From: Myxococcota bacterium
Lineage (GTDB): Bacteria > Myxococcota > B64-G9
NCBI GenBank assembly: GCA_022710975.1
Contig: JAKLGA010000004.1
Span: forward strand, 186,001-250,000
Reading direction: 5' to 3'
Length of the DNA: 64,000 nucleotides
Shown here: positions 8,419 through 32,235 of the stretch, piece after piece
Numbering within the stretch: position 1 is the first letter of the stretch
Layout: each line of letters starts with the position of its first letter
Made by a program: the position numbers and the translations under genes
The notes under the pieces: generated by a model
What the model was told of the DNA's origin: nothing
Databases searched by the model: none
Seen by the model: only the letters and a program-made list of their open reading frames with translations

Positions 8419-9471
8419 ATGGCGCTGTACGTGAAGACCGTGCTGCCCAACGGCCGGACCCTCGGGGAGCGGTTGGTCGAGCGGTTCCCGCTTGGGTTCA
8501 CGCTGGCGGAGCTGCTGGCGCTGCCCGGCCTGTCCTTCGAGGACCGCGAGGAGTTCCGCTGGGGCCACGCCAGGGGCGCGCGGGAGCTCCTGCTCGGGGA
8601 CGTCGCCTGCCTGCGAGACCAGCACGACGGGGCCCGCTGGAGGGTAGAGGACCGGCGCGGGGACGCCCGGAGATGGCTCCTGGAGGTGCTCGGCAAGGCC
8701 GAGATCTTCCCGGGCTGGCCCGTGGACCTGGGGAATCCGAAGTACGTGCTCGGGCTCTTTCAGGCCGCGGCTGCCTTGCCCAACCCGGCGCAGCGGGAGG
8801 ATCCCCAGGTCCACGCCCCCGCCGATGTCCGGCTCGCCTGCGAGCAGGTGGCCGGCGAACGCGCCGAGGAGCGCCAGGTGCCGAGCGCCCTCACGCCGGA
8901 GGCCGTGCGGAGCCTGGTGAGCGCCGTGACCTGTGCCCTCGCGGACCTCGAGTGGGAGCGGGAGGCCGACAAGTTCCCGGTGAGCGAGCTGCCGCTCGTG
9001 GTCGCGGCCTACGCGGGTGACCTGGCGGAGGTCCACCGGCTGCTCGAGCAGGGCGCCGCGGTGGACGAATTCGACTCCGCCGGGGATCGGGCGGCGAGCT
9101 GGGCGGCGGTGGCCGGGAACGCGGAGATGGTCAAGGCCCTGCACGCGGCCGGCGCGGACCTCACCCGCCGCGGGCCGGACGGCTGGAGCCTGCTGCACTC
9201 GGCCATGGAGTGCCCGGAGATGGAGCTGGTCCAGTACCTGCTGGACCAGGGCGTGCCCGCGGACGCCAGCTCGCGGGACGGCACGACCGTGCTGCACATG
9301 GCCGCCTACTGCGGCGACGAGGCGGTGATCGATCTGCTGGTCTCGCGCGGCGCCGAGGTCAACGCACTGGCGCACGGCGATACCCCGCTCGACTTCGCCA
9401 CGTCGCTCGGCCTGCGCGAGACCGCCCGGGCGCTCCGGAAGCACGGGGGCAAGTTCAGCATCGACCTGTAG
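8419..9471 (+). CDS. Ankyrin-repeat protein
   Basis: A 350-residue cytoplasmic protein. The C-terminal half (about 192-345) has four ankyrin repeats, with units such as LPLVVAAYAGDLAEVHRLL, DGWSLLHSAMECPEMELVQY, DGTTVLHMAAYCGDEAVIDL and GDTPLDFATSLGLRETARAL. They probably form a protein-binding solenoid. The N-terminal 190 residues show no domain I recognise. There is no signal peptide. GGAGGTGGCGAGG upstream supports ATG 8419 over a TTG at 8308. It is divergent from the three-gene operon; the 273-base gap between them shows no strong promoter. Confidence 0.82.
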   Translation: MALYVKTVLPNGRTLGERLVERFPLGFTLAELLALPGLSFEDREEFRWGHARGARELLLGDVACLRDQHDGARWRVEDRRGDARRWLLEVLGKAEIFPGWPVDLGNPKYVLGLFQAAAALPNPAQREDPQVHAPADVRLACEQVAGERAEERQVPSALTPEAVRSLVSAVTCALADLEWEREADKFPVSELPLVVAAYAGDLAEVHRLLEQGAAVDEFDSAGDRAASWAAVAGNAEMVKALHAAGADLTRRGPDGWSLLHSAMECPEMELVQYLLDQGVPADASSRDGTTVLHMAAYCGDEAVIDLLVSRGAEVNALAHGDTPLDFATSLGLRETARALRKHGGKFSIDL

Positions 9472-9507: not shown

Positions 9508-9610
9508 GTGGGTTTCGGGTATCTGGTATCGGGTGTCGAGAGAAGAACGCAGTTCCAGGTTCCTGGTTCCACGTTCCAGGTTCCACGTTCCACGTGTCTC
9601 GTGCTTGGTA
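9508..9610 (+). repeat. Short-period tandem words
   Basis: Intergenic stretch built of repeated words: GGTATCTGGTATCGGGTGTCG, then several copies of GGTTCC(A/T)CGTTCCA-type units. Similar words recur at 17548-17575 and 26575-26605. It is not coding. Confidence 0.6.
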
Positions 9611-9620
9611 CCTGGTGCCT

Positions 9621-9680
9621 ACCCCTCGAAGCCTGCCCGGGGCGATTCACACTCGGGGGGTCCGCAAATTCCAGCCAGTT
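9621..9680 (-). repeat. Dispersed 3'-end repeat, copy 1
   Basis: One of four copies of a roughly 60-base element. In plus-strand order it has CCCCTCGAAGCCTGCCCGG, then GATTCACAC, then a GGGGTCCGC-type block and CCAGCCAGTT. It lies 70 bases past the stop of the leftward gene that ends at 9750. The other copies, at 16715, 17433 and 19493, have the same orientation and the same position after a leftward gene. Confidence 0.7.
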
Positions 9681-9749
9681 GCAGGAGGGTGGCACCTGGG
9701 CGAGGGGGGCGTTGGCCCCTGGACCCGGGTGGGTGTGCGGGCCGCCGCG

Positions 9750-11537
9750 CTAGGGACAGGTGATGAGGCAGTGCTGCTGTGCTTCGTTCGCGCAGGCCTG
9801 GTTCCACATCCCGTAGCAGTACCAGAGTTGTGCTGCGGCGCAGGCGCGAATTGGATCGGAGTCGCAGCCAGTGGACGAGCAGCAGGTGTGGTGCCTGTTG
9901 CGAGTGTAGCTCAGGTTGACCTCGCACTTGTCCGTCTGAAGGGTGGACGCGATGTCCTGCTGGGCGAAGCTCCAGGAGCCCAGGACCTGGGTGCCCGCCT
10001 TGAGCGACACCGTCGTCGTCGTGTTTTCCTTGGCGCAGAAGTAGCGCTGGTTGCGCACGTTTGGGCCGAGGAGGATGTCGAAGACGTAGCTCTCCTCAGG
10101 ATCGATCTGCTGCGTGTCGTAGCCGCCCCACTCGATCGTGTAGTCGAAGAGCGCGATAGTCTGGCCGATACGCCAGTGATCGTATGTCACGATGTCATCT
10201 GTCCGCGAGGAGTTCCGCACCACGGGGTACACGTTCTGCTGCACTGACGTCGTATTGAGCGAGTTGATCTGGACGGAGTAGTCCCAGTAGGCGTGGTTGG
10301 TGTAGGTCCCTGGCATCTTCCGCATCACGTTGCCGGTCACCCGCGCTTCCCAGAAGTGGATGGGGTCGCATACCTGGTCGCCGCGTTTGGCCGCGTCGTT
10401 GTTGTCGTTCCAGGCCCAGGGCGGCTGGGCAGCGTTTTCGTCAGCGCCGATGCTGTGGTCGTTCCCGCGGAGGTTGATGTACGTCGACACCATGGGGCAG
10501 GCGTCGTAGGTGCCGCACGCTGCGGTGCCCGGGTAGGAGTCCCTGAAGAACCAGAATCCCTGCTTCTCATCGCCTAGCTGGCTGCTCCATGGATCTGAGT
10601 ACGATCTCCCGGCGGGGGGCCAGGTCTCGCCGTCGTTGAGCCCGATCAGCTCGTAGTGGCAGGGAATCTGGAAGAAGTCGCTCTGCGGGTCGAAGAACTC
10701 CGACCCGAAGTGGCAGGTCATGGCTGGGATGTCGGCGTGACCGCCGAAGTCGTAGAAGACGAAGGTGCCTTCGTAGAACTCAGCCTCCTGGACAGTCCTT
10801 GGGCAACCCGTGGTCATCGCGCTACGGATTGCGTAGATGGCATGGCCGCCGGCCTCGACCTGGAAGCATGGCTGCTCGGGATTCGTACCCTCCGTGAAGA
10901 GCTCGAGGGTCTGGGTGCCATCCTTGGCGTCCCAGTAGAGCCCGTCGTCGTTGTTGTCGCTGCGGAGCCTGACGTCGATGGTCCCGTGCGCGACCGTGGC
11001 GGCGGCGTAGAGGTGACCCAGGCAGTTGCAGCCGGGCTCGGAGGCCGGATCAGGACCCACCAGTAGAAACACGCCCTCCAGATCGTTCTCGTGCTCCTGC
11101 TCGGCGCCCAGATCGTCGCTGTAGTCCTGGCTGTGGAACAGGTAGTACCCGATGAAGGAGAAGCTGCCGGCCCGGCTCACCGAGTAGTACACGTAGGCGG
11201 GGCGGTGATCTGTTACCACGGTCTCGAGATCCTCGCCCACGTCGTGGTACTCGAACGGGTCCAGGGCGTGATTCTGGTTGTCCCTCCCTTGGTAGTTGTA
11301 GTCGAAGTTGAAAGAAGTGAACTCGTCGCGGTTGATGGCGTCGTGGGAGTCGTTGGTGTCCTGGTAGAAGCGGGGCGCCCAGTGGGCGGCGATCTCGTAG
11401 TCCGAGATCAATGGGCAGATGCACAGCGGATCCGAGCGGCTGGCCAGGTCTTCGCCAGGCCCGGTGCCGCACGCGCCGGGCCCGCATACGCCCAGCAATA
11501 GCATCAGAAGAGAAGCGGTCCAGAGTCTCGTGGCCAT
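9750..11537 (-). CDS. Large secreted protein with HENDLEG motif (Vps62-like comparison)
   Basis: A 595-residue exported protein of unknown function. An N-terminal signal peptide (TASLLMLLLGVCGPGAC) is followed by an aromatic, acidic chain rich in Asn/Asp. Notable segments are AAHWAPRFYQDTND, AYVYYSVSR, GYYLFHSQDYSDD and HENDLEGVFLLVG. This arrangement resembles the Vps62-type secreted/vacuolar family, where an HxNDxEG motif is conserved (tentative). There are many cysteines, including a C-terminal cluster, which fits a disulfide-bonded envelope protein. GGGAGG six bases before ATG 11537 sets the start, two codons after an upstream ATG. Confidence 0.72.
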   Translation of the reverse strand: MATRLWTASLLMLLLGVCGPGACGTGPGEDLASRSDPLCICPLISDYEIAAHWAPRFYQDTNDSHDAINRDEFTSFNFDYNYQGRDNQNHALDPFEYHDVGEDLETVVTDHRPAYVYYSVSRAGSFSFIGYYLFHSQDYSDDLGAEQEHENDLEGVFLLVGPDPASEPGCNCLGHLYAAATVAHGTIDVRLRSDNNDDGLYWDAKDGTQTLELFTEGTNPEQPCFQVEAGGHAIYAIRSAMTTGCPRTVQEAEFYEGTFVFYDFGGHADIPAMTCHFGSEFFDPQSDFFQIPCHYELIGLNDGETWPPAGRSYSDPWSSQLGDEKQGFWFFRDSYPGTAACGTYDACPMVSTYINLRGNDHSIGADENAAQPPWAWNDNNDAAKRGDQVCDPIHFWEARVTGNVMRKMPGTYTNHAYWDYSVQINSLNTTSVQQNVYPVVRNSSRTDDIVTYDHWRIGQTIALFDYTIEWGGYDTQQIDPEESYVFDILLGPNVRNQRYFCAKENTTTTVSLKAGTQVLGSWSFAQQDIASTLQTDKCEVNLSYTRNRHHTCCSSTGCDSDPIRACAAAQLWYCYGMWNQACANEAQQHCLITCP

Positions 11538-11706
11538 GTCCATCCTCCCTCGCGGATTAGTTGCCCCCACTTCATGACTCGCTCTTGCTGAGCGTTGAAC
11601 CTCGAACTCCCCTGGAAGCCGTCGAGGGATCCTTTACGCCCCTCCCGGCAGGGCTCCCGACTCCGCCGGTCCTCCCGCGCACCCCGCTCCTGTCGGGTTC
11701 TGGCTG

Positions 11707-11735
11707 ACCGTACCATCGACCTGGCGCGAGGTCAA
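11707..11735 (-). promoter_or_regulatory. Sigma-70-like promoter for the 9750-11537 gene
   Basis: On the minus strand: TTGACC, 17-base spacer, TACGGT. It would leave a leader of roughly 165 bases before ATG 11537. Confidence 0.5.
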
Positions 11736-11757
11736 ATGATGTCGGGTTCGGGAGCGC

Positions 11758-12081
11758 GTGTGGCGTCGCACCGGCTGCGGCGGCCCCGGAGGCGGTGGCC
11801 TGGCATCTGAGGCCTGGGGGGTCAACACCTTGATCGAGATGCACGAAGTTGCCAAGGCGCTGGATCTCTACAAGGTGAAACGTAGCGCGTACCCGACTGC
11901 AGCAGAGGGGCTGAAGGCGCTGGTTCTGGGTGGCGAGCTTGAGAAGCTTCCCACGGATGCCTGGGGAAATCCCATCGTGTACAGCATCGAGGAGAGCGGA
12001 CACAGGTACAAGCTGACCTCACTCGGCGCGGATGGCAAAGAGGGCGGGGCAGGAGTCGATGCGGATATCGTCGTGGAGTAG
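11758..12081 (+). pseudogene. Type II secretion pseudopilin GspG-like C-terminal fragment
   Basis: From about residue 25 the frame matches the globular domain of the major pseudopilin of type II secretion: ALDLYKVKRSAYPTAAEGL, then LPTDAWGNPIVY and a C-terminal YKLTSLGADGKEGGAG segment that would bind calcium in real GspG. The essential prepilin cleavage site and the N-terminal hydrophobic helix are absent; the sequence before residue 20 is Gly/Arg-rich and not a pilin start. No other gsp genes are near. It is probably a dead fragment or a pilin-like domain re-used without a leader. The exact 5' boundary is uncertain. Confidence 0.65.
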
Positions 12082-12138
12082 GCATTAGATGCCCCTGCTT
12101 GAGCCGCCTGGCCTCTCCTGGTTGGTGGAGCCGTGATC

Positions 12139-12954
12139 CTACTTGCGCGAACTACGTTTGCGATTTGGCTTCTGTAGGCGAGACCCAATTCTTTTCCGCA
12201 ACGCCCGCAAGGAGATCATCGGCTTCCTTCGATGGATGAACCGATGGCAGTTCGGGCAGAGGATGGCCAGATCCTCCAAGCTTGTGAGGTTGAGACCGCG
12301 TCCAGCGAGGGGTCTAGTGTGATGGACCTCATACAGTTTGGCGCCATCTTTGCCGAACTGCGTTTCCAGGTCCACAGCGCATGCCTCGCAGGTGAGTGAG
12401 CCATGCTCGGCAATGAACTGATGCTTCTTGGCATCGACGAGGAAGCGTTTCCGCTCGCGCCGGATGTGCTGTGCGAGGGTTTTCTTGCCTTCCTTGGCCG
12501 TGATCCATGACAGGTCCAGGTCTTCTGGCGCTCCGGGCTTCTGGTAGTTGTCAAGGAATCGCATGAACCTCTCGGTGAGATCGTCCGGCACGAATGTGCT
12601 CATGTGCGGCTGGCGCAGGTAGGCCCACTCTCGGAATCGTGGCCTTACCGCAGAGAGCGGAACTGGCTCAAGTAGAAGCTCGACCTGGTCAATTGCTGCA
12701 CCAGATCGTCCATGCCAATTGTGCCCTGGATTATTCAAGGGTTTGACTCTGCCGTTGATCTTGCCCCTTGCGACGAAGGAGGACACGGGATGTACAAGGT
12801 AGAAGAGTACAGTATCTCCACGCTGGGCATCTTGATGTGTGGTCCACCAGCCAAATCCTGTGGATGCAGCAGCCTTGTGTCTTATGCCTTTGTAATGATC
12901 CTCTTGGGTCCCAAAGACAATCAGCACTCTCGGGCGTTTTTTTGTTGGCATCAT
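12139..12954 (-). CDS. EVE-like/HNH restriction endonuclease (modified-DNA dependent, predicted)
   Basis: A 271-residue two-domain nuclease. The N-terminal part (about 8-110; RVLIVFGTQEDHYKGIRHK, GWWTTH, GDTVLFYLVHP, FVARGKI) has the look of an EVE/PUA-like reader of modified bases. The C-terminal part is a McrA-like HNH: a CEAC knuckle, YEVHHTRPLA, then LEDLAILCPNCHRFIHR with the second Cys pair and the final His. EVE-HNH fusions cut DNA with modified cytosines. The start is set at the MM pair (12954); a codon five residues upstream is possible. It is transcribed towards the gspG fragment and belongs with the defence-like genes to the left. Confidence 0.8.
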   Translation of the reverse strand: MMPTKKRPRVLIVFGTQEDHYKGIRHKAAASTGFGWWTTHQDAQRGDTVLFYLVHPVSSFVARGKINGRVKPLNNPGHNWHGRSGAAIDQVELLLEPVPLSAVRPRFREWAYLRQPHMSTFVPDDLTERFMRFLDNYQKPGAPEDLDLSWITAKEGKKTLAQHIRRERKRFLVDAKKHQFIAEHGSLTCEACAVDLETQFGKDGAKLYEVHHTRPLAGRGLNLTSLEDLAILCPNCHRFIHRRKPMISLRALRKRIGSRLQKPNRKRSSRK

Positions 12955-13002
12955 TTCGCCACCCCGCATCTTCGACTGCTCGTGTCGCCAGTCTTCCTTG
13001 CC

Positions 13003-13353
13003 CTACTTTGGCTGACGCTCCGCCGCCATCAGGTACTTCACGTCCACTTCTCGCTCAGGAGCCCGAAAGACCTGCTTCCTGTGGTAGCGCCCTCCATGCA
13101 TCACAGCCTGGGACGATGGGCGCCAAGGGGCGCTACCACGGCGCGGGGTTTCAGGTAGAGGCCGTGGAGCCGCGCCGTGCCATCCGGGTATTGCCCGTGC
13201 GGAGCGGATGCCGTTCTTCTTCTGCGGCGGGCAGAGTTCGAGGAGCGCGTCCCGCAGCGGCGCCTCGATCTCGGAGAAGGGGAGGCGAGGGGACTGGCCG
13301 CGCTGCGCGCGGCCCAGCTCACCCACCACCTGGCCCCAGCTCTTCACTGCCAT
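13003..13353 (-). pseudogene. Second decayed copy of the sulfur-binding-domain-like nuclease
   Basis: It starts MAVKSWGQVVGELG, then jumps straight to RAQRGQSPRLPFSEIEAPL. Compared with the fragment at 4224-4514, a 21-residue (63-base) segment is missing in frame. After LRDALLELCPP the homology is lost. The shared block (about 13240-13320 against 4340-4420 on the plus strand) is almost identical at DNA level. The promoter (TTGTCC-17-TACACC) and the six-base distance to ATG are also the same. Both are therefore remnants of one gene family, probably inactive. Confidence 0.6.
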
Positions 13354-13359
13354 GGACAA

Positions 13360-13388
13360 GGTGTACCGCACGCGAAGGCAGGGGACAA
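13360..13388 (-). promoter_or_regulatory. Leaderless-type promoter
   Basis: Minus strand: TTGTCC, 17 bases, TACACC, then TTGTCC and ATG (13353). Same architecture as at 4521, 20077 and 23978. Confidence 0.65.
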
Positions 13389-13402
13389 GGAGGCCGCCCT
13401 CC

Positions 13403-13432
13403 TTGCCCTCCCGCGGTCTGGTCGACTACGAT
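13403..13432 (+). promoter_or_regulatory. Promoter of the FGE-sulfatase gene
   Basis: TTGCCC, 18-base spacer, TACGAT; then about 28 bases to ATG 13461 including a GGAGG ribosome binding site. Confidence 0.5.
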
Positions 13433-13460
13433 TCCTCCCAGAATCTCCCGGAGGATCCAC

Positions 13461-15095
13461 ATGCGTTCCATGACCGCCCCAGGCCTCGCCGCCCTCGCCC
13501 TGCTCCTCCTCGTCGAAGGTCTGGCCCGCGGCCAGGATCGCCCGATCGTCGCGGTGTTCGACATCGAGGACACGCGGGACAGGCGGGACCGGCTCTCGCC
13601 CCAGAAGCTGCAGAGCCTCACCGACTACCTGGGCAACAAGCTGGCCATCGAGGGCAAGTTCAAGATCGTGCCCCGCGACAGCGTCCGGGCGGCCATCCAG
13701 GCCAAGAAGAAGGAGTCCTTCAAGGAGTGCTACGACGAGGCCTGCCAGATCGAGATCGGCAAGGAGATCGCGGCCCAGAAGTCCCTGGCCACCAAGATCG
13801 ACCAGCTCGGCGAGGAGTGCATCGTCACCAGCACCCTGTTCGATCTCCGGCAGAGCGCCACGGAGAACTCCGCCTCCTACCGCGGCCCTTGCGGGCGGGG
13901 GGATCTTCTGACGGCCATCGAGCAGATCGCCGCCCGGCTGCGCGGCGAGACGGGCGCCGTGGCCCCGAAACAGGGGATCCGCTTCGACACCTCGGACCTT
14001 CCAGCCGTGCCCAGCCTGGAGCTGCCGCCCGGGAGCGAGGCCGCGGCCGCCGGCGTGGACTTCGGCGACGTGGACGTGGACGCCATGGAGCTGTTCGACG
14101 CCGCGGTCCAGGGAGAGAAGGACGACGCCGTGCCGGTCGAGCAGAAGATCGCGCGCTGGAAGCGGGTGAAGGACAGGGCGCCGAAGTACCGCGGGCACGC
14201 GACCGGACGGATCGCAGTGTGGCAGGAGCACGCAAAGAGGCGGCAGAAGGTCGACGCGGTGTTGAAGAAGCGGGCGGCCAGGATGATGCAGGACTGGAGC
14301 AAGCTCTCCCGCCTGCTCAAGCTGAAGATGATCTCCGAGGAGGACAAGGCGGCCTGGAGCGAGGCGTTCTACTCGGCCTACGAGGTGGAGGCGCGGGACA
14401 ACCCCTTCGCGCGCGCGCCCGACGTGGTCGGGTTCCTGGCGGCCATGACGGAGAAGAAGCGGATGGCGGAGGAGTACGCGAGGCTCGCAGCGCAGGTGCT
14501 GGCCAGCATCGCCTGGGTCCCCAGCCGGCCGGCGGGGGTCGAGTTCACCCGGAGCGAGGTGACGGTCGCGCAGTACGCCGCCTGCGTGCAGGTGGGCAAG
14601 TGCAGCACGCCGATCCCTGGCGACGGGTGCAACTGGGGTCAGGCCGGCAAGGACAACCACCCGATCAACTGCGTGCGCCTGAGCCACGCCAAGGACTTCT
14701 GCGCCTGGGCCGGCGGGAGGCTGCCCAGCGAGCAGGAGTGGCAGGCCGAGGCCACAAACAGCGGCACGCGGGAGTTCCCCTGGGGGAACGAGGACGTGAC
14801 CTGCGAGCGGGCCATCTGGGGCGACGATGACAGGACCGACGGCTGCGGCACGGGCGGCACCGCCGCCGTGTGCTCGAAGCCGAGAGGGAACAGCGTGAGC
14901 GGGCTGTGCGACATGAGCGGCAACGTGTGCGAGTGGACCTCGACCGAGGTGAACTCCCAGCCCGTGTACCGTGGCGGCGCCTGGATGTTCCTCGGCTTCG
15001 ACAGCCTGAGCGCGACAGAGAGGAGCAGGTCCCTGGGAGACAGCAACCTCGGAGACAACGTCCTCGGGTTCCGTTGCGCGCGGCCGGCCCGGTAA
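13461..15095 (+). CDS. Secreted protein: CQIEIG module plus formylglycine-generating-enzyme-like (FGE-sulfatase) domain
   Basis: A 544-residue exported protein. The signal peptide (residues 1-24, ALALLLLVEGLARG) is followed by a module (about 27-160) that starts PIVAVFDIED and contains VPRDSVRAAIQ and CYDEACQIEIGKEIAAQKSL. This resembles the TolB/CsgG-type fold that scores gene-regulated envelope stress, but the role is unknown. A charged linker (200-345) leads to an FGE-sulfatase domain (about 352-542): TRSEVTVAQYAAC, HPINCVRLSHAKDFCAWAG, GRLPSEQEW, DMSGNVCEW and GFRCAR. Enzymatic formylglycine formation is uncertain, since many such domains act as binding modules. GGAGG six bases before ATG sets the start. 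Paralogous modules lie at 24032-25099 and 40420-41700. Confidence 0.82.
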   Translation: MRSMTAPGLAALALLLLVEGLARGQDRPIVAVFDIEDTRDRRDRLSPQKLQSLTDYLGNKLAIEGKFKIVPRDSVRAAIQAKKKESFKECYDEACQIEIGKEIAAQKSLATKIDQLGEECIVTSTLFDLRQSATENSASYRGPCGRGDLLTAIEQIAARLRGETGAVAPKQGIRFDTSDLPAVPSLELPPGSEAAAAGVDFGDVDVDAMELFDAAVQGEKDDAVPVEQKIARWKRVKDRAPKYRGHATGRIAVWQEHAKRRQKVDAVLKKRAARMMQDWSKLSRLLKLKMISEEDKAAWSEAFYSAYEVEARDNPFARAPDVVGFLAAMTEKKRMAEEYARLAAQVLASIAWVPSRPAGVEFTRSEVTVAQYAACVQVGKCSTPIPGDGCNWGQAGKDNHPINCVRLSHAKDFCAWAGGRLPSEQEWQAEATNSGTREFPWGNEDVTCERAIWGDDDRTDGCGTGGTAAVCSKPRGNSVSGLCDMSGNVCEWTSTEVNSQPVYRGGAWMFLGFDSLSATERSRSLGDSNLGDNVLGFRCARPAR

Positions 15096-15341
15096 CGCGG
15101 AGTCGTGGCCCCTCGTGCAGGCGCCTGGCGCCGGAGTACCGCACCGGCGGACCCGGGGGAGGGCGTGGCTCGGCTCGGCTGCGCCTCGCCTCGCGGCGCC
15201 CCTACCGGCATCGCCTGCTCCTGCCGGCTCACCTCCACCACGGTCTGCTCCCCTGGCCGGACCTCCGCGAGGCGGGTGAGGCGCATCCCCAGCCCGTCAG
15301 ACCCTGGTGCCGACCTGAGACCAAGGACAAGGAGGTGCGCC

Positions 15342-15530
15342 ATGGCCCGGCAGTCTCCGGAGCGCCCTCGGCGAGCTGCCAGGAGGCGGACGTGCAGGGA
15401 GTGCGGGGAGCACCCCGCGGTCTTCCTGTATTGTGGCCGCGTCCGGGCCGACCGCGCGCACGACCTCTGCCCGCGCTGCGCCCGGCGGGCGATCGACAGG
15501 CTGAGGGCCAGGCAGTGCGAGGCGGCATAG
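15342..15530 (+). CDS. Small Cys-rich zinc-binding protein
   Basis: A 62-residue, very basic protein with paired knuckles: CRECG at about 18-22, a central Cys at 31, and CPRCA at 43-47. It could bind one zinc and possibly nucleic acid, given the Arg-rich N-terminus (RRAARRR). GGAGG seven bases before ATG 15342 supports the start. It is the only candidate in the gap after the FGE-sulfatase gene; 15096-15341 shows nothing else I can name. Confidence 0.6.
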   Translation: MARQSPERPRRAARRRTCRECGEHPAVFLYCGRVRADRAHDLCPRCARRAIDRLRARQCEAA

Positions 15531-15601
15531 GGCTTCACTGCGGGCGGCCAAGGTTCCCTGCGTGCCGGCGGTGGTTGGAGATTTCGCCCAGGCGACGAGG
15601 T

Positions 15602-15946
15602 TCAGGTGGGCGTCCCGCCAGGGACCGGCGGCGAGGCAGGCCTCGTGTTCTCCTCGATCTTCATCTGGCACAGCGCCGTCTGCACCTGGAGCTGCAGGTT
15701 GGAGACCCGTACGCGGCCCAGCACGCGCGCTATCTCGCAGACCGGGAGGCCGCATCCCACGAGGTAGGTCCACACGCTGCTCTCGCCCCCGTATACCTTC
15801 CACAGGAACACGCCAGCGCAACAACCAAGGATCAGGCCCGCAAAGGTGTAGACGCTCATGATGACGAGCGTGTGCAGCTCGGTCCCACGCATGAGCCTCT
15901 TCATCTCCTGGGGACCGTAGTCTTGCTGGGGATCGAAGATCTTCAT
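15602..15946 (-). CDS. Small two-TM membrane protein, duplicated copy A
   Basis: A 114-residue inner-membrane protein of unknown function, starting MKIFDPQQDYGPQEMKRLMR. Two hydrophobic segments (about 27-50, VYTFAGLILGCCAGVFLW, and 60-75) flank a short loop. The C-terminal tail LQLQVQTALCQMKIEENTRP is polar and probably cytoplasmic. The near-identical copy B lies 500 bases to the right; the copies differ mainly in the loop and second membrane segment. GGAGGGAG before ATG is a good RBS. The start codon overlaps the stop of a 12-codon leader frame (15943-15981) as ATGA. Confidence 0.72.
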   Translation of the reverse strand: MKIFDPQQDYGPQEMKRLMRGTELHTLVIMSVYTFAGLILGCCAGVFLWKVYGGESSVWTYLVGCGLPVCEIARVLGRVRVSNLQLQVQTALCQMKIEENTRPASPPVPGGTPT

Positions 15947-15981
15947 GGCGCTCCCTCCGGGTCCCGACGCCTCACGGCCAT
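15943..15981 (-). CDS. Possible 12-residue leader peptide, translationally coupled
   Basis: ATG GCC GTG AGG ... CCA TGA encodes MAVRRRDPEGAP. The -10 box TACATT ends six bases before this ATG, and its stop overlaps the downstream start as ATGA. In copy B the same frame begins with ACG instead of ATG. It is either a real leaderless leader peptide or a by-product of a conserved promoter. Confidence 0.35.
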   Translation of the reverse strand: MAVRRRDPEGAP

Positions 15982-15987
15982 GGACGA

Positions 15988-16016
15988 AATGTAGTGTGTC
16001 GCGTTCCGCAAGACAA
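15988..16016 (-). promoter_or_regulatory. Promoter of duplicated copy A
   Basis: Minus strand: TTGTCT, 17 bases, TACATT. The -10 ends six bases before the leader ATG at 15981. Confidence 0.6.
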
Positions 16017-16101
16017 CTGGTCCCTGGCGGCTGGTGGTTGGCACCTGCGAGTCTTTCCTGCGCACCGCCGGAGCTTGGAGACTTTACCTGGGCGACGAGG
16101 T

Positions 16102-16446
16102 TCAGGTGGGCGTCCCGCCAGGGACCGGCGGCGAGGCAGGTCTTGTGTTCTCCTCGATCTTCATCTGGCACAGCGCCGTCTGCACCTGGAGTTGCAGGCT
16201 GAAGACCCGTACGCGGCCCAGTTCGCGCCCTATCTCGCCGAGCAGGAGGTTGCCTCCCATGAGGAAGTACCACCAGCTGAATCCGACCTCGAGCGTCTTC
16301 CACAGGAACACACCAGCGAAAGAACCAAGGGCCATGCCCGCGAAGGTGTAGGCGCTGACGACGAAGCGCGTGTGCAGCTCGGTCCCACGCATGAGCCTCT
16401 TCATCTCCTGGGGACCATAGTCTTGCTGGGGATCGAAGATCTTCAT
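16102..16446 (-). CDS. Small two-TM membrane protein, duplicated copy B
   Basis: A 114-residue paralogue of copy A with the same first 26 and last 20 or so residues (MKIFDPQQDYGPQEMKRLMR at the start, QTALCQMKIEENTRP near the end). The membrane region differs: VYTFAGMALGSFAGVFLW and a second segment with WWYFLMGGNLLLGEIG, so the pair has diverged where they sit in the membrane. The cysteines CC in copy A are replaced here. The GGAGGGAG RBS is kept; the leader frame has lost its ATG (now ACG). Function unknown. Confidence 0.72.
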   Translation of the reverse strand: MKIFDPQQDYGPQEMKRLMRGTELHTRFVVSAYTFAGMALGSFAGVFLWKTLEVGFSWWYFLMGGNLLLGEIGRELGRVRVFSLQLQVQTALCQMKIEENTRPASPPVPGGTPT

Positions 16447-16846
16447 GGCGCTCCCTCCTGTTCCCGACGCCTCACGGCCGTGGACAAGGTGTACCGCGAT
16501 GGCCAGGAAGGCACAAGGTGCGAGCAGCGGAGCGAGCGAGGCGGCGAAGCACAGCGAGCGAAGCGAAGCAGTCCCGCCTCAAGGATAGTCCGGCCCGCTT
16601 CGCACCTGAGGTGCGGGAGTCCCGCCCCAAGGGATTCCCGTGCTGCCATGGGTCAACTTGTTGCGGGAGCCCCCGAAGGGGGTGCATCGTGCATCGTGCT
16701 GCGTTCCTTGCTCCAACCCCTCGAAGCCTGCCCGGAGTGATTCACACACGGAGGGTCAGCCAACTCCAGCCAACTGTCCCTTGCGATCCACACGCGGAGG
16801 GTCTGCCAACTCACGCCAGTTTCCCGGGGCGATCCACACAGGGGGA
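16447..16846. other. Intergenic region with promoter, GC-rich words and dispersed repeats
   Basis: It holds the copy B promoter (16488-16516), a run of AGCGAGCGAAGCG-type words (16520-16575), GTGCATCGTGCATCGTGCT at 16682-16700 and the dispersed 3'-end repeat from 16715 on. No gene seen. Confidence 0.6.
16488..16516 (-). promoter_or_regulatory. Promoter of duplicated copy B
   Basis: Minus strand: TTGTGC, 17 bases, TACACC; transcription would start close to 16481, leaving a leader of about 35 bases with an RBS. Confidence 0.6.
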
Positions 16847-16850
16847 TCAG
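16715..16850 (-). repeat. Dispersed 3'-end repeat, copy 2 (with two further partial units)
   Basis: CCCCTCGAAGCCTGCCCGGA then GTGATTCACACACGGAGGGT and CCAACTCCAGCCAACT. A second unit follows at about 16781 (GCGATCCACACGCGGAGGGT) and a third, partial one at 16830. It reaches the stop codon of the leftward gene at 16847. Confidence 0.75.
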
Positions 16851-17383
16851 CCCACCACGAAGCCCTGCTTCAGGAGCGCATAGACGCGCTGGTAGCTCCT
16901 CTGGTGAGCCTTGCAGGACCCGACCACCCCCCAGAGCCGCTGGGCGGGTTTCATGAGCCGCTCGAGGAGCGCCTTGCGCCGCGGCTCGAACGCCGCCTCC
17001 GCCCGCCTGACCGCCTGCTCCTCGGCCTCGGGGGAGAGCTCGAGCCTCGCGGCCGCGGCCAGGTTGAGCTCCGTCTTCGCCCTGGCCCGGGTGGTGAGCT
17101 GGTCGAGCCTCATGGCGAGCTCCGCGTCGCAGGCGAACTTCCCGCGCTCCAGGGCGGCGAAGGCCTCCTCCAGCGAGTCGAGCCGGGCGTGGTTCAGCTC
17201 GAGCAGCAGCGCCTCCAGGCGCGCCTCCGCGGGCAGGCCGGCCTCGTCCGGAGCGTCCTCGGCGGCCTTCCCCTGGCCGTCGCCGTCCCTGGCCTCGTCG
17301 GGGGCCTCGTGGTCCCTGGCCGGCTCGGCGGCGAGGGCGGCGGGGGCAGCCGCCAGGAGCAGGAGCCCGATGAGACGCGTCAT
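16847..17383 (-). CDS. Secreted helical protein of unknown function
   Basis: A 178-residue protein with a clear signal peptide (residues 1-18, LIGLLLLAAAPAALA) and no lipobox. The rest is acidic then helical (about 50-160), with LEALLLELNHARLDSLEEAF and LERGKFACDAELAMRLDQL. Two cysteines may form a disulfide bond. There is no domain I recognise. GGAGG ten bases before ATG 17383 supports the start. The dispersed repeat follows its stop. Confidence 0.72.
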   Translation of the reverse strand: MTRLIGLLLLAAAPAALAAEPARDHEAPDEARDGDGQGKAAEDAPDEAGLPAEARLEALLLELNHARLDSLEEAFAALERGKFACDAELAMRLDQLTTRARAKTELNLAAAARLELSPEAEEQAVRRAEAAFEPRRKALLERLMKPAQRLWGVVGSCKAHQRSYQRVYALLKQGFVVG

Positions 17384-17432
17384 GGGTACACCGCCTCCAA
17401 GGAGATGGTAGACGGAACCTGGGGCGAGAATC

Positions 17433-17530
17433 CAACCCCTCGAAGGCTGCCCGGAGCGATCCACACACGGAGGGTCGGCCAACTCCAGCCAGTTGTTCCT
17501 GGGCGATCCACACGCGGAGGGCCTTCGGCC
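17433..17530 (-). repeat. Dispersed 3'-end repeat, copy 3
   Basis: CCCCTCGAAGGCTGCCCGGA, GCGATCCACACACGGAGGGT and CCAACTCCAGCCAGTT, plus a partial second unit at 17504. It lies 100 bases past the stop of the leftward lipoprotein gene at 17632. Confidence 0.72.
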
Positions 17531-17631
17531 AAGCGGCGAGTGGTTCGGGTGTCGAGTGTCGGGTATCGGGGGAGGAAACCGGACCTCCAGCCCGGGAGGA
17601 GTGACGATCGCGGCCGAGGAGGAGGCCAGGC

Positions 17632-19230
17632 TCAAGGCGGGGGAAGGAGCACGTAGCTCTCGTTCACCATCCAGGTCCGGGACGCGTCCCTGAACACGGA
17701 GTCCCAGCAGACCTTGCACTGCGCGTAGGGATCCTCGTCCCAGGTCGCCACGGTCGGCCCCATCCTCAAGTCCGCGCCTGCGGGCAGGTAGTCCCCCAGG
17801 GGGACGCTGGACGGCCAGGCCACGTCCGCCAGGGTGAAGGACCCGACCTCGGGGAAGACGATCACCGCCCAGCGGTACACGTCCGCGCCCGCGGCGACCT
17901 GGCGGATGCTGTACTGCAGGGCGGCCTGGGTCGCCCAGGCGGGGAGCTCGACCGGGATCGGGGTGTGCATGTCGAGCGTGCCGCCCGGTGCGATGCCCTG
18001 GATGGCGGGCAGGTCGGGGACCGTCACCGAGGTCCAGGTGGCTGGATCCAGGGGGAGCGCGAGCCGGTAGTACCAGTCCTCGCTCTGGTCGTCCCAGAGG
18101 TCCAGGTAGGCGGACTGCCTCCCGGCCAAGGCGTCGGGGACGTAGGCCACCTCGACCACGGCAGACGTCCAGTCCCCGGTCCACGAGCTGGTGAAGCCGG
18201 TCAGGGGCCCCCACAGCATCACCCCGGTCAACACCCGGTTCGAGCCGTCCGGCCCGTCGCTCGGGAGCGTCGCGTCCTTGACCGGGCTGTCCGCCGCGAG
18301 CTCGAAGTCGAGCTGCAGGGTTGCGGTCGGCAGGACCGACGCCTCGGGTGCGATCGTGGGTCCGTCGCCCGTGCCGAGCCAGTCGTAGTCCACCCGGGCG
18401 AAGCCCAGCGGGGTGGCCGTGGAGCCGTCGCTGGTGTACTCCACCGCGACCAGCCGCTGGCCGGTGGCGTATAGCGAGTTCAGCCCGTACCGGCCCGTCA
18501 AGGAGTAGTTCATCCAGATCGAGCCGTAGATCCAGAGGTAGCTGCCCGCCTCGAGGTGGCTGCAGTCGCCGCGCATCCAGGAGTACGCCGGCCCGTCGTC
18601 CGGCCGGTGGATCACCAGGGGATCGGGCAGCGGCCGGCCGCCGCCCAGACCGACGATCGAGCGCGCGTAGGACCCCGGCTGGAGGAAGGTGAGGGAGAAG
18701 GTCCGCTGGCCGAGCGCCAGGCCCGGGAAGCTCACCCGGCCGGAGGCGTCGCTCTCCGCCTCGTAGGTCTGGTCCAGGCAGCGGATGGCCACCGGGATGC
18801 CCGCCAGGGGGGCCTCGGAGCCCGCGGTCAGGAAGACCACGTTGAGCGTCTCGCTGCCCGCGCAGGTCGGCGCGCACGCCCCCGTCTCCGGCTCGCAGGC
18901 CTCGCCCGGCTCGCAGCCCGGGCCGCACTCGCCCCCGCACCCGTCCTGCCCGCACTCCTTGTCGCTGCAGTCCGGGGTGCATCCGGCCACGCAGGCGGCG
19001 CGACCGTCGGTCTCGTCGCAGTCCCCGCCGGTCTCCGCGCAGAAGGTGGTGTCGAGCCAGCTCAGGCAGCCGCCCGCACCCCGGCCGCAGGTCTGGAGCA
19101 CCGTGCCGGCGCAATGGGTGAGGCCAGGGCTCAGGCACCGGTCCGTGCAGCCCCCGCCCTCGTCCTCGCAGCCGGCCAGGCCGATCAGGCCAACGACCAG
19201 GAGCGAGCCCAGGACCCCTTGCTTGACCAT
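17632..19230 (-). CDS. Cys-rich lipoprotein with carboxypeptidase-regulatory-like segment
   Basis: A 532-residue lipoprotein: signal plus lipobox LAGC with C21. Residues 22-140 are Cys-rich, including the CSDKECGQDGCGGECG unit seen in the other large lipoproteins of this window. Residues about 145-210 (PLAGIPVAIRCLDQTYEAES, ASGRVSFPGL) look like a carboxypeptidase regulatory-like (CarboxypepD_reg) beta-sandwich. The remainder is beta-rich and unassigned. It is probably anchored in the outer membrane with a disulfide-stabilised stalk. GGGGGAGG seven bases before ATG 19230 sets the start; a promoter lies at 19386-19415. Confidence 0.78.
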   Translation of the reverse strand: MVKQGVLGSLLVVGLIGLAGCEDEGGGCTDRCLSPGLTHCAGTVLQTCGRGAGGCLSWLDTTFCAETGGDCDETDGRAACVAGCTPDCSDKECGQDGCGGECGPGCEPGEACEPETGACAPTCAGSETLNVVFLTAGSEAPLAGIPVAIRCLDQTYEAESDASGRVSFPGLALGQRTFSLTFLQPGSYARSIVGLGGGRPLPDPLVIHRPDDGPAYSWMRGDCSHLEAGSYLWIYGSIWMNYSLTGRYGLNSLYATGQRLVAVEYTSDGSTATPLGFARVDYDWLGTGDGPTIAPEASVLPTATLQLDFELAADSPVKDATLPSDGPDGSNRVLTGVMLWGPLTGFTSSWTGDWTSAVVEVAYVPDALAGRQSAYLDLWDDQSEDWYYRLALPLDPATWTSVTVPDLPAIQGIAPGGTLDMHTPIPVELPAWATQAALQYSIRQVAAGADVYRWAVIVFPEVGSFTLADVAWPSSVPLGDYLPAGADLRMGPTVATWDEDPYAQCKVCWDSVFRDASRTWMVNESYVLLPPP

Positions 19231-19385
19231 CTGGAACCTCCCCCTATTCGAGCACCAATTGGCCGCATTGGAGCGGCGTTCGCGGACGTGGCAGGCATGC
19301 GTCTACACGCTCCTCCTCACGCACCGGCGCCGTTTCCCCTCGGCGCCTTCTCCCGGGCTTCTGGTTCCCTCAGGCTGTGATCGGA

Positions 19386-19415
19386 CGAGTACCACCCCCG
19401 CCCCGCCAGGGTCAA
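19386..19415 (-). promoter_or_regulatory. Promoter of the 17632-19230 lipoprotein
   Basis: Minus strand: TTGACC, 18 bases, TACTCG. Confidence 0.45.
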
Positions 19416-19492
19416 TCTTGCCCGCCTGCAGGTGACGGGCACCGGCCAGAGGGGGCATGGTGCTTGGTGCATCGTGCCGGGGTCCCTTGTGC

Positions 19493-19556
19493 CAACCCCT
19501 CGAAGCCTGCCCGGAGTGATTCACACACGGAGGGTCCGCAAACTCACGCCAACAAC
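19493..19556 (-). repeat. Dispersed 3'-end repeat, copy 4
   Basis: CCCCTCGAAGCCTGCCCGGA, GTGATTCACACACGGAGGGT, then CCGCAAACTCACGCCAACAA. It ends 11 bases past the stop of the leftward gene at 19567. Confidence 0.72.
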
Positions 19557-19566
19557 CTTCCGCGGC

Positions 19567-20070
19567 TCACTCCACCGGGAACTCGATCTCGAAGGACACC
19601 GCCGACGGGGAGCCGGAGGGCGGGAAGGGGAAGGCGCGCGCCTCGCGGGCCAGGCAGGCGGCCAGGTAGGACCCGCGGTAGGGCGGCGGGGTGTCCGGCG
19701 CCAGCTCGGCCGAGCTCACCTCGCCGCCGGGCTCGATGGTCAGCCTCAGGGTGAGGCTGCCCGGGGGCAGCGCGCCGAGCCGGCGCTGGCCCTCCCCGCA
19801 GCCCGCGGCCGCCTCCTGGACGGCGGGGCCGTCGAGCGCGGCCTGGAGCGCGCGCTGGTCTCTCGCCGAGGCCGGCACCACCAGGCGCGAGCGATCGGGC
19901 GCCCGCCGGGCGGCCCCGTCGCGGCCCGGGTCGTCCTGGCCCGCGGGCTCCCGCGCTCCGCCCTGGGGCGCCTGGGCGCGGAGGCCCCCGCAGCCCGTGG
20001 ACAGGAGCGCGGCCAGGAGCGCGGGCGCGAAGCGGCGGCCCAGCCTGGACCCACGGCGGTGCACGGCCAT
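19567..20070 (-). CDS. Lipoprotein with AgmX/PglI- or TonB-like C-terminal domain
   Basis: A 167-residue envelope protein. A basic N-terminus is followed by a hydrophobic segment and lipobox LLSTGC (C27). The C-terminal 85 residues (LTLRLTIEPGGEVSSAELAP, LAACLAREARAFPFPPSG) match the beta-alpha-beta TonB/AgmX-PglI pattern: a strand with GxV, a middle helix ending in a Cys, and a closing FxFPPS. These domains bind partners in the periplasm. There is no RBS: ATG 20070 sits six bases after a TACACC -10 box, so the mRNA is probably leaderless. Confidence 0.75.
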   Translation of the reverse strand: MAVHRRGSRLGRRFAPALLAALLSTGCGGLRAQAPQGGAREPAGQDDPGRDGAARRAPDRSRLVVPASARDQRALQAALDGPAVQEAAAGCGEGQRRLGALPPGSLTLRLTIEPGGEVSSAELAPDTPPPYRGSYLAACLAREARAFPFPPSGSPSAVSFEIEFPVE

Positions 20071-28794: not shown

Positions 28795-31700
28795 ATGTCC
28801 AAGCTGGGTCGCGTGGCGATGTGCTTCGTGCTGGTGGCCGGTCTGGCGGCGGCGGGCTGTGACTCGGGGGGCGGGAGCTGCACCCCGGAGGTCGGCACGA
28901 CCTGCCTGCAGGGCGTGACCTACTGGGTGGACTCCTGCGGCGAGCGGGGCGAGGTGGCGGACAGCTGCGTGTGCGGCTGCGCCGACGACGGCCTGGCGTG
29001 CCGGACCGACTGCCCCTGCCTGCCCCAGTGCACCGGCAAGGAGTGCGGGCCCGACGGCTGCGGCGCCTCGTGCGGGGACTGCACCGCGCCCGAGAGCTGC
29101 GACGCCGACGGGCAGTGCGTGGCCTGCGCCCCGGACTGCGCGGGCAAGCAGTGCGGCGACGACGGCTGCGGGGGCTCCTGCGGCACCTGCGACGCGGGCA
29201 TGCACTGCGACGCCCAGGGCGGCTGCGTGCCCGACTGCCTGGCCGACTGCGAGGGCCGGGTGTGCGGGCCGGACGGCTGCGGCGGCTCGTGCGGCGACTG
29301 CGACGTCGGCGCGGGCGAGGTGTGCGTGCTGGCCTCGGGCCAGTGCCAGGTGTGCGCCCCGGACTGCGCCGGGCGCGCGTGCGGCCCGGATCCCACCTGC
29401 GGCGCCTCGTGCGGCACCTGCGGCGCGAACGAGCAGTGCGATGCGGACGGCGTGTGCCAGCCCGTCTGCAGCCCGGACTGCGCGGGCAAGGAGTGCGGGG
29501 ACGACGGCTGCGGCGGTTCGTGCGGCACCTGCACGGTCGCGGGCGAGGCGTGCGAGGAGGCCACGGGCCAGTGCGAGGCCTGCAGCCCGGACTGCGCGGG
29601 CAAGGAGTGCGGGGACGACGGCTGCGGCGGTTCGTGCGGCACCTGCACGGTCGCGGGCGAGGCGTGCGAGGAGGCCACGGGCCAGTGCGAGGCCTGCAGC
29701 CCGGACTGCGCGGGCAAGGAGTGCGGGGACGACGGCTGCGACGGCTCGTGCGGCTCCTGCACGGCCCCGGAGACCTGCCAGGCGGACGGCACCTGCGCCT
29801 GCGTCCCGGACTGCCTGGACCGGGAGTGCGGGGACGACGGCTGCGGCAACTCGTGTGGCGCCTGCACCGCGCCCGAGAGCTGCAACCAGGCGGGCCTGTG
29901 CGAGTGCGTCCCCGACTGCCAGGGCAAGGAGTGCGGGGACGACGGCTGCAACGGCTCGTGCGGGGAGTGTGTGGCGCCCGATATCTGCCAGGTGGACGGG
30001 ACCTGCTGGCACGAGGACGTGCCCTGCTGCGGGGTCGGCCAGGAGTGCGGCCTCGATCCCTGCATGGGCACCTCCTGCGGCTCCTGCACCGCGCCCGAGA
30101 GCTGCCAGCCGGACCTCACCTGCGCCTGCCTCCCGGACTGCACCGGCAGGGAGTGCGGGGACGACGGCTGCGGCGGCTCGTGCGGCACCTGCACGGGCGC
30201 AGGCGAGGTGTGCGAGGAGGCCTCGGGCCAGTGCCAGGTGTGCGTCCCGAACTGCGCCGGCCGGGAGTGCGGCCCGGATCCCACCTGCGGTTCGTCCTGT
30301 GGCACCTGCGCCATCCCGGGCGAGTCCTGCGACGCGAGCGGCCAGTGCGTCGCGGGCGACCCGTGCCCGAACGGCGCGGTCACCATCGCGCAGATCCAGG
30401 ACGTGGACGCGGTCGGCCACCCGGCCGAGGGCGCGGAGCTGTGCGTGCAGGACGTGGTGGTCACCACCCCGGTCATCACCATCAACGGCACCCCGGTCTT
30501 CTACGTGGAGGACGCGGGCGGCGGCCAGTGGAGCGGCGTCTACGTGTACGCCTCGGGCCTGACCCTGGACCCCGGGGTGGTCCAGGGCGCCTCGCTGGCC
30601 ATGACCGGCACCTACGCCGAGTACTACGGGCGCACCGAGCTGGTGCCCACCGCGATCACCGTGCTGGGCGCGGGCGTGGTGCCCGCCCCGATCGTCGTCA
30701 GCCCGGACAAGCTGATGACCGGCAGCGTCTCGGCCGAGAGCTACGAGGGCGTGCTGGTGCGGGTCGAGGACGTGGACACCCTGGTCACCCCGTTCCCCGG
30801 GAGCGACGGGCTGGACCACGGCGACTTCCAGGTGGCCGCGCCGGCCGACCCGACGTCCTTGCTGGTGGTGGGCTGGCAGTTCCAGTACCCGTTCGTGTGC
30901 CCGGCCACGGGCCCGCTGCCCCAGGTCCCTTGCGCCACGGACCAGCGCGCGCTGGGCCAGACCTTCACCCGCATCACCGGGGTGATGGACTACTCCTGGA
31001 GCGAGTTCCGGCTGATGCCGCGCGAGGACCCGGACGTGGTGCTCGAGGGCGGCCCGGTGGACACGGACGGCGACGGCCTGGCCGACTTCGAGGACAACTG
31101 CCGGCTCGCCTGGAACCCGCAGCAGGAGGACCAGGACCTCGACGGCGTCGGCGACCTGTGCGACAACTGCGTCGCCGTCGAGAACCCGGACCAGCTCGAC
31201 TCGGACGGCGACAGCTCCGGCAACCTGTGCGACAACTGCCCCTGGGTGGCGAACCCCGGCCAGGAGGACGCGGACGGGGACGGCGTGGGCGACGCCTGCG
31301 AGGGCGGGGCGCGCGTGCCGCACCTGGTGATCACCGAGCTGTGCGTGACCCCGTCCACCGGCGAGTTCATCGAGATCCACAACCCGACGGCCAACGCCGT
31401 CGACCTCGGCCAGTACTACCTGTGGGACGCGACCTACACCGACGCGGTCACCCCGGCGAACAGCCGCTACTACTGGCAGATCGCCAGCCTCGTCGCCCTG
31501 GGGGTGGACAACGACTTCGTGGCCCGCTTCCCGGACGGCAGCACGCTCGCGGCCGGGGCCACCGCCACCATCGCGGTCAACACCGCGGCCGCCTTCCAGA
31601 CCGCCTACGGGGAGGAGCCGACCTTCGCGCTGCGGGGCGACGGCCTGGGCCTGACCCTGGACATGGTCCCGGCCTTCGCCGGCGCCGTGGGCGCGAACGC

Positions 31701-32037
31701 TGGCCTGAGCAACGCCCAGGAGGTGGTGGTGCTGTTCCGCTGGGACGGCGCCGCGGACCTGGTCCAGGACGTGGACTACGTGCTCTGGGGCGGCACCAAC
31801 TTCGCCTCGGACAAGACGGGCGTCAGCGTGGGCTCCTCCGCCTACCTGCCCGACACGCCCATCGCGGAGCAGGTGTTCCCGCCCACGCACACGGGCGGCC
31901 AGTCGCTCTATCGCGCCGACCTCCTGGAGGGCGCGGAGCTCCAGAGCGGCGGGAACGGCCTCGGCGGCCACGACGAGACCAGCGAGAACCTGGACACCAC
32001 CTTCGCCATCGGCGCCCCGAGCCCGGGGACGCCGTAG
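28795..32037 (+). CDS. Giant Cys-rich lipoprotein with thrombospondin-3 repeats and Lamin-tail domain
   Basis: A 1080-residue lipoprotein (lipobox AAGC, C22). Residues 30-520 hold about twelve CxPDCAGKECGDDGCGGSCG-type units. The centre (about 525-750) is beta-rich and unassigned (VVTTPVITINGTPVFYVED, an OB/DUF-type segment). Next come calcium-binding thrombospondin type 3 repeats (DTDGDGLADFEDNC, DQDLDGVGDLCDNC, DADGDGVGDACEG). The C-terminal 240 residues are a Lamin-tail-like domain (LVITELCVTP, GEFIEIHNPTANAVDLGQYY). This fits an extracellular surface or adhesion protein. It follows GAAAGGGG at 28785; a TACCAT box at 28751 may be the -10. Confidence 0.82.
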   Translation: MSKLGRVAMCFVLVAGLAAAGCDSGGGSCTPEVGTTCLQGVTYWVDSCGERGEVADSCVCGCADDGLACRTDCPCLPQCTGKECGPDGCGASCGDCTAPESCDADGQCVACAPDCAGKQCGDDGCGGSCGTCDAGMHCDAQGGCVPDCLADCEGRVCGPDGCGGSCGDCDVGAGEVCVLASGQCQVCAPDCAGRACGPDPTCGASCGTCGANEQCDADGVCQPVCSPDCAGKECGDDGCGGSCGTCTVAGEACEEATGQCEACSPDCAGKECGDDGCGGSCGTCTVAGEACEEATGQCEACSPDCAGKECGDDGCDGSCGSCTAPETCQADGTCACVPDCLDRECGDDGCGNSCGACTAPESCNQAGLCECVPDCQGKECGDDGCNGSCGECVAPDICQVDGTCWHEDVPCCGVGQECGLDPCMGTSCGSCTAPESCQPDLTCACLPDCTGRECGDDGCGGSCGTCTGAGEVCEEASGQCQVCVPNCAGRECGPDPTCGSSCGTCAIPGESCDASGQCVAGDPCPNGAVTIAQIQDVDAVGHPAEGAELCVQDVVVTTPVITINGTPVFYVEDAGGGQWSGVYVYASGLTLDPGVVQGASLAMTGTYAEYYGRTELVPTAITVLGAGVVPAPIVVSPDKLMTGSVSAESYEGVLVRVEDVDTLVTPFPGSDGLDHGDFQVAAPADPTSLLVVGWQFQYPFVCPATGPLPQVPCATDQRALGQTFTRITGVMDYSWSEFRLMPREDPDVVLEGGPVDTDGDGLADFEDNCRLAWNPQQEDQDLDGVGDLCDNCVAVENPDQLDSDGDSSGNLCDNCPWVANPGQEDADGDGVGDACEGGARVPHLVITELCVTPSTGEFIEIHNPTANAVDLGQYYLWDATYTDAVTPANSRYYWQIASLVALGVDNDFVARFPDGSTLAAGATATIAVNTAAAFQTAYGEEPTFALRGDGLGLTLDMVPAFAGAVGANAGLSNAQEVVVLFRWDGAADLVQDVDYVLWGGTNFASDKTGVSVGSSAYLPDTPIAEQVFPPTHTGGQSLYRADLLEGAELQSGGNGLGGHDETSENLDTTFAIGAPSPGTP
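29467..29694 (+). repeat. Exact 114-bp tandem repeat inside the giant lipoprotein gene
   Basis: The 38-residue unit starting CSPDCAGKECGDDGCGGSCG is repeated base for base at 29467-29580 and 29581-29694. A third copy (from 29695) starts the same and then diverges. This indicates recent slippage or recombination expansion. Confidence 0.88.
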
Positions 32038-32040
32038 GGA

Positions 32041-32235
32041 GTGCAAGGTACGTAGTGCATGGCAGCGGAACGAGCGAGCGAAGCGAGCGCGGCGGAACGA
32101 GCGAGCTAAGCGAGCGAAGTGGAGCAGTCCCGAAGGGAAAGTGGAGCAGCCCCCGAAGGGGGTGCATCGTGCATCGTTCTTCAATGCACTAAGCACTAAG
32201 CACTAAGCACGAAGCACGCAGCACGAAGCACGCAG
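32041..32235. repeat. Low-complexity intergenic words
   Basis: AACGAGCGAGCGAAGCGAGC-type units, then GTGCATCGTGCATCGTTC, then three GCACTAA units and alternating GCACGAA/GCACGCA units. It lies between converging genes and is not coding. Confidence 0.65.

Follow-up and report, generated by a model that had tools for sequence, protein, structure and literature searches.

Four look-alike stretches of DNA in a window of a Myxococcota genome are most probably the termini of an old mobile element and not a gene-end signal. In the reading that we favour, with a probability of about 0.6, they are unpaired half-units of an interspersed, non-coding repeat with MITE-type behaviour, known so far from one genome, and their uniform orientation reflects local clumping rather than a function at RNA 3′ ends. 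That the repeat has moved around the genome we infer from sequence comparison. The window, that is, the whole stretch analysed, is 64,000 nt long and covers bases 186001–250000 of contig 24, in a genome of 7.13 Mb in 29 contigs.

Within the window, the pattern GATTCACACACGGAGGGTC with up to 3 mismatches matches six places, all on the + strand (9644, 16739, 16785, 17458, 17505 and 19518), and none in 100 dinucleotide shuffles of the window, confirming that the four copies picked out by a sequence-only reading are real and above chance. The core quoted in that reading was partly off: a shared repeat exists, but the quoted core is a mixture, and only the copy at 17433 reads AAGGCTGCCC, with GATCC and not GATTC. 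Its partial units about 50 bases apart are present at a step of ~46 bp (16783–16852 and 17498–17532), following units 2 and 3 (Table 1). All four window copies are single, unpaired units, and the called gene on the right runs leftward at each of them. They had been placed 0–100 bases past the stop in each case; measured from the model-matched units, this holds for unit 1 (82 bp), unit 2 (83 bp) and unit 4, but unit 3 lies at 149 bp, with its extra unit at 108 bp. Unit 3 is additionally 54 bp upstream of a gene start. Beside these copies we observed two tandem paralogues adjoining unit 2 (15602–15946 and 16102–16446, leftward, ~115 codons each), with 75% protein identity and 86% DNA identity over 440 bp, and a separate 33-bp repeat with GTGCATCGTGCATCG, which occurs before unit 2 (16668–16700) and again at 32148–32180, 97% identical.

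Table 1. Repeat units and an adjoining tract in the window, and transposase matches in the genome
Feature	Position	Strand	Remarks
Solo unit 1	9621..9670	+	Outer end at right; convergent gap between 8419-9471 (+) and 9750-11504 (-), with the rightward stop at 9471 and the leftward stop at 9750
Solo unit 2	16716..16765	+	Full unit; highest score among window copies
First partial tandem unit	16783..16810	+	46 bp after unit 2
Second partial unit after unit 2	16823..16852	+	Weak, 13 bits; 5-bp overlap with gene 16847-17383 (-)
Solo unit 3	17435..17484	+	Between start of 16847-17383 (-) and stop of 17632-19230 (-)
Partial tandem unit after unit 3	17498..17524	+	Pattern and model match
Solo unit 4	19495..19544	+	24 bp past stop of 19567-20070 (-)
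GTTCC-type minisatellite	9550..9595	+	Inner side of unit 1; no other window copy has one
Y1 transposase matches	C4:154010, C5:190227, C1:306895, C3:17283, C20:26514		Five matches

The copies belong to a much larger family. A model started from 24 copies, using sequence only, gave 95 matches at E ≤ 1 across the genome, some of which form close −/+ pairs; this total is a minimum, because the first pass of this search scored 150 of 4472 candidates. After iteration, the model counted 96 units in 911 kb of sampled pieces, picked mostly around model matches, and 0 in the reversed control. With this count and placement, which had been proposed as a check, the single orientation reported for the window copies holds there but does not extend to the genome, where 53 units lie on the + strand and 43 on the − strand. 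The whole of contig 24 together with C1:1–910000 contained 25 units by the model (reversed control, 0), two of them new to the set (12.4 and 16.0 bits). Units are clumped, on contig 1 near 93–98 kb and on contig 24 near 149–158 and 195–205 kb. A pattern for a divergent second arm type matched at 11 places, of which contigs 5 and 8 hold 9, and the model misses some of the 11.

Outside this genome we found no copy. The repeat was absent by pattern from 28 relatives (0/28) and by model from the same-family genomes (0/8), and the model with stricter filters gave 0 matches across the 194 genomes searched from the phylum besides the source, those 8 included. An exact pattern that occurs 20 times in the retrieved stretches of the source genome matched neither viral contigs nor a set of 84,980 species, which may omit the source genome itself; window stretch 16700–16860 matched nothing among plasmids and phages. 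The genomes searched include no second member of the source genus. Literature searches with the repeat's letters, and for myxobacteria with intergenic or palindromic repeats, returned no earlier report of the repeat. A protein beside a contig 1 copy has its best matches in uncultured Myxococcales (50% identity) and Deltaproteobacteria (43%).

Each unit is ~60 bp long and has a sharp outer terminus (...CACACACGSRGGRTCNGCCAACG; ...GCCAACG) from which conservation fades inward. In a logo of 80 units, information drops from 0.97 to 0.13 bits between the first and the fifth base beyond the AAC end, and the fade on the inside is gradual. Thirty-one of the 96 units stand in inverted pairs with their sharp ends outward, 26 of them in 13 measured pairs that span 115–270 bp and 5 assigned by eye. 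The remaining 65 are single, which is an upper figure because the solo count takes in one or more units with a weak inverted partner, such as L067:7281 (partner at 12.8 bits). An inverted partner of at least 6 bits lies on the inner side of 31/96 units and on the outer side of 5/96, and the inner flanks of units yield few decayed partners. When 24 paired units, 26 single units and 21 units of the subfamily that includes the window copies (split off by a short motif) were compared, the single units were conserved to about −60, as are the paired ones, more weakly beyond −50, and then not at all. Single units therefore look like half-palindromes that end near the palindrome centre. They are also no worse preserved: full units in doublets and singlets have median scores of 43.6 bits (n=20) and 42.6 bits (n=49; p=0.77), at least 5 units with weak partners being counted among the singlets. 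An excess of solo units (65 versus 31) at equal conservation is odd for simple decay. In the subfamily of the window copies, a number of copies carry a GTTCC minisatellite on the inner side and some have a 46-bp tandem extension. Minisatellite-like tracts, of this type or of the GGTGTCGAGTGTCGGGTATCGG type, lie beside some repeats and in other gaps, in the window at 9550–9595 and 17549–17570.

The sequence-only reading saw no clear hairpin, and this stands for the window copies: the four window stretches fold no better than shuffles (z −0.3, 1.3, −0.2 and 0.3). It does not describe the third or so of units elsewhere that occur in inverted pairs, since four such pairs fold as long hairpins (z −7.3, −5.7, −7.1 and −3.3 versus shuffles). 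A conserved RNA structure, the subject of another proposed check, did not emerge: RNAalifold returned 0 consensus pairs for 68 single units, and no co-variation or compensatory change was seen between paired arms. Two arms of the same element resemble each other no more closely than arms taken from different elements do (n=13, p=0.58; n=9, p=0.67 without the contig 5 and 8 pairs), so nothing points to selection on the hairpin as such. This pattern is as expected if the ends were read by one protein rather than kept as a selected hairpin. Six microRNA-model matches to one full palindrome, scoring 19–26 bits against gathering scores of 78–97, were taken as chance rather than as an RNA family. 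Integron attC sites were also rejected. The outer core sites of attC read RYYYAAC ... GTTRRRY; the elements here, read by eye, run CGTTGGC ... GCCAACG, the reverse order.

With genes called by a home-made hexamer scorer rather than a published gene finder, 95 of the 96 units do not overlap a called gene, in DNA that is 86% coding. The sole exception overlaps by 5 bp, at window position 16847, where the stop codon of the leftward gene sits inside the partial unit. Of 66 gaps with units, tandem ones number 35, convergent ones 21 and divergent ones 10, whereas these types make up 42, 26 and 31% of the bases available (p=0.017); the count omits 4/96 units that lack a called neighbour on one of their sides. 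The cluster lies nearer the stop in 24/35 tandem gaps (p=0.04), or 22/32 without the window (p=0.05). Measured against random placement relative to genes, as the sequence-only reading had suggested, the units are thus intergenic and moderately stop-sided, but their orientation is not fixed. The position after the stop of a leftward gene, true of 4/4 window copies, likewise fails as a genome-wide rule, as all gap types carry units.

Orientation separates the window from the rest of the genome. The outer end faces the stop in all three of the window's tandem gaps; in single-orientation tandem gaps outside it, the outer end points toward the start in 18 and toward the stop in 7. Neighbouring solo loci within 12 kb of one another are like-oriented in 18 cases and unlike in 6 (p=0.02; 12 to 6 without contig 24), and such clumping of like-oriented copies can explain the uniform orientation in the window. 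Strand-specific insertion was rejected, since orientation follows neither GC skew (p=0.84; 24 loci + and 16 −) nor gene strand (p=0.90). Insertion into terminator-like stems was dropped as well: stems of at least 6 bp occur in 8/87 outer flanks, compared with 5.9% and 7.3% in two control sets (2000 and 286 stretches), no clear excess. As to the neighbouring genes, no Pfam family occurs in more than 4 of 106 neighbours, among the best 25 of 118 families, and a lipobox-like start was seen in 20/116 neighbours versus 92/643 of all genes.

We looked for traces of insertion at the element ends. No target-site duplication was found in the 13 pairs (k=2–12, and for seven lengths also with the boundary moved by between −4 and +4); k=10 alone reached p=0.015, which fails correction for 11 tests. 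One of the pairs, L063 (1/13), is interrupted, and one of its ends is therefore not a true end. No empty site was found in the genome. Two paralogous matches crossed a junction (L049 and L078); the one inspected as an alignment, at L049, follows a second repeat in the flank. A 92.8%-identical gene stretch that lacks the unit (L083) is not an empty site because unrelated DNA lies upstream of it. The genome has five Y1 transposase matches (Table 1), one DDE_Tnp_1 match and no rve match, and no unit lies at the ends of any of the Y1 or DDE_Tnp_1 genes, the families covered being Y1, DDE_Tnp_1 and rve.

The Y1 genes bear on the first of the rival explanations, in which a REP-associated tyrosine (Y1) transposase would have spread a repeat of the REPIN/REP type, the window copies being singlets derived from inverted doublets. 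With such families, as PMC3733652 and PMC3116915 describe them, the repeat shares its inverted doublets, its singlets and its tandem arrays, which lie between genes and favour convergent and tandem gaps near stops, and the Y1 gene on contig 5 has a triple unit ~1 kb away on one side, the nearest of any Y1, while the one on contig 1 has units 1.9 and 4.5 kb away on two sides, in the same orientation. Against this, the unit is not palindromic by RNAalifold, no Y1 gene carries units at its ends, doublets are no better conserved than singlets in the comparison above, and orientation has no tie to GC skew. Moreover, the Y1 copies on contigs 4, 5 and 1 have end sequences in common, with CCGG palindromes, that differ from the repeat unit. 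We regard this origin as improbable, though it is the least so of the rivals in which the family is of REP type, marks 3′ ends or borders cassettes. Fragments of the Y1-copy ends, 215 and 254 bp long, also stand alone on contig 1.

A 3′-end RNA element of the upstream genes (a terminator or a processing or stability signal) would account for the four window copies past leftward stops and for the stop-sided tandem gaps genome-wide. The larger set does not support it: units occur in mixed orientation to transcription, which rules out a fixed 3′-end role, they lean the opposite way outside the window, 10/66 gaps are divergent, single units have no fold and the paired arms no co-variation, the window holds no Rfam family at gathering score, and outer-flank stems are about as frequent as in controls. 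We consider a signal of this kind, including the processing or decay signal of the sequence-only reading, very unlikely. Equally small is the chance that the units are recombination sites, borders of exchangeable gene cassettes at which the gene between two elements moves. Its main support is an element–gene–element unit at C5:6012–8819 (L059), homologous to the inverted stretch C8:15056–18056 (L063 5056–8056) with 88% DNA identity over 2.4 kb; the homology stops ~10 bp or less from the outer ends of both flanking elements. Yet the case is single. In a scan of 236 homology blocks of at least 400 bp, no second two-sided case appeared among those listed (end at most 400 bp from a unit), and most of the listed blocks end at or within genes; homology of the gene pair L051/L083 meets a unit on one side only, and at C5, L086, a third locus, the gene order of a homologous pair is preserved across an element. 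With one two-sided case, a cassette role is thus a possibility at most. The contig 8 elements (L063 5183–5282 and 7854–8018) have a GTTTCC-type repeat inserted at the same arm point, which their contig 5 counterpart does not have. Around many elements lies a paralogous gene family (L083 9485–15033, L059, L063 and L086), with no Pfam match in 4/4 members scanned; a window gene in 28795–32037 has 65–71% DNA similarity to parts of the family.

The flanks of the copies are otherwise mostly unrelated. Three contig 24 copies have up to ~160 bp in common, inner minisatellite included, the left flank of the pair at L051 (13069) matches that of the solo unit at L076 (1286) with 81% identity over 73 bp, ending at the unit in both, and segmental duplicates occur on contigs 5 and 8. 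Not every copy is therefore an independent insertion. The sequence shared by L051 and L076 is itself a CCGG-palindrome repeat.

Among the options that the sequence-only reading had offered, a MITE-like element is the best supported, by inverted pairs, a sharp outer end, non-coding sequence and mostly unrelated flanks. A short element that an enzyme copied in trans would fit the sharp terminus, the inverted arrangement, the location between genes and the finding of copies in a single genome among those searched. A transposase would have recognised the outer terminus and copied elements around the genome, and segmental duplication may have multiplied some of them. An arm could have been lost close to the centre of the palindrome to give half-units, or these could have moved on their own; the repeats would persist where they are least harmful, namely in gaps, and there more often downstream of stops than upstream of starts. 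A variant that we consider unlikely makes the ~60-bp half-palindrome itself the mobile or bound unit: a single end would insert without target duplication, pairs would form secondarily beside another copy, the mobilising enzyme would be of an unrecognised kind, and the pairs might be borders of gene exchange.

Short non-coding MITEs of bacteria include RUP, NEMIS, ERIC and EFAR and have terminal repeats of 15–30 bp, according to the description in PMC3733652. The repeat resembles MITEs as characterised there (70–300 bp, non-coding, with inverted terminal repeats, intergenic and in many copies per genome): the paired elements have inverted terminal repeats with a sharp outer end, and they are short and lie off genes. 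Unlike MITEs, the repeat has neither a target duplication nor, in the transposase families covered, a cognate enzyme that we could find, half-units (the single-ended window copies among them) outnumber whole elements, and the terminal repeats are ~48–60 bp rather than 15–30 bp (PMC3733652). We report it as MITE-like and do not file it as a MITE because no target duplication and no parent element were found. With REPs and REPINs mobilised by RAYT, as presented in PMC3116915 and PMC3733652, it has in common doublets, singlets and tandem arrays in gaps, often near stops; unlike these, it is not palindromic, no Y1 gene carries the unit and its doublets are not better conserved. GTAG REPs often provide a stop codon in the account of PMC3733652, as one window unit does here. 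The same source describes TIRYTs and TIRtrons, whose long inverted ends are likewise dispersed as singles, dimers and clusters; here, by contrast, no Y1 gene of the genome has the repeat's ends, those of the C4, C5 and C1 copies being different.

For readers of single genomic windows the case carries a caution: four like-oriented copies in one window mimic a 3′-end signal, and the genome-wide set disagrees. For the short intergenic repeats of bacteria it adds a family, known so far from one genome, whose host is an uncultured relative of the myxobacteria. Half-units are in excess and well conserved, and neither a target duplication nor a transposase is visible; the family can thus serve to test how repeats of this kind spread and whether half-copies are dead.
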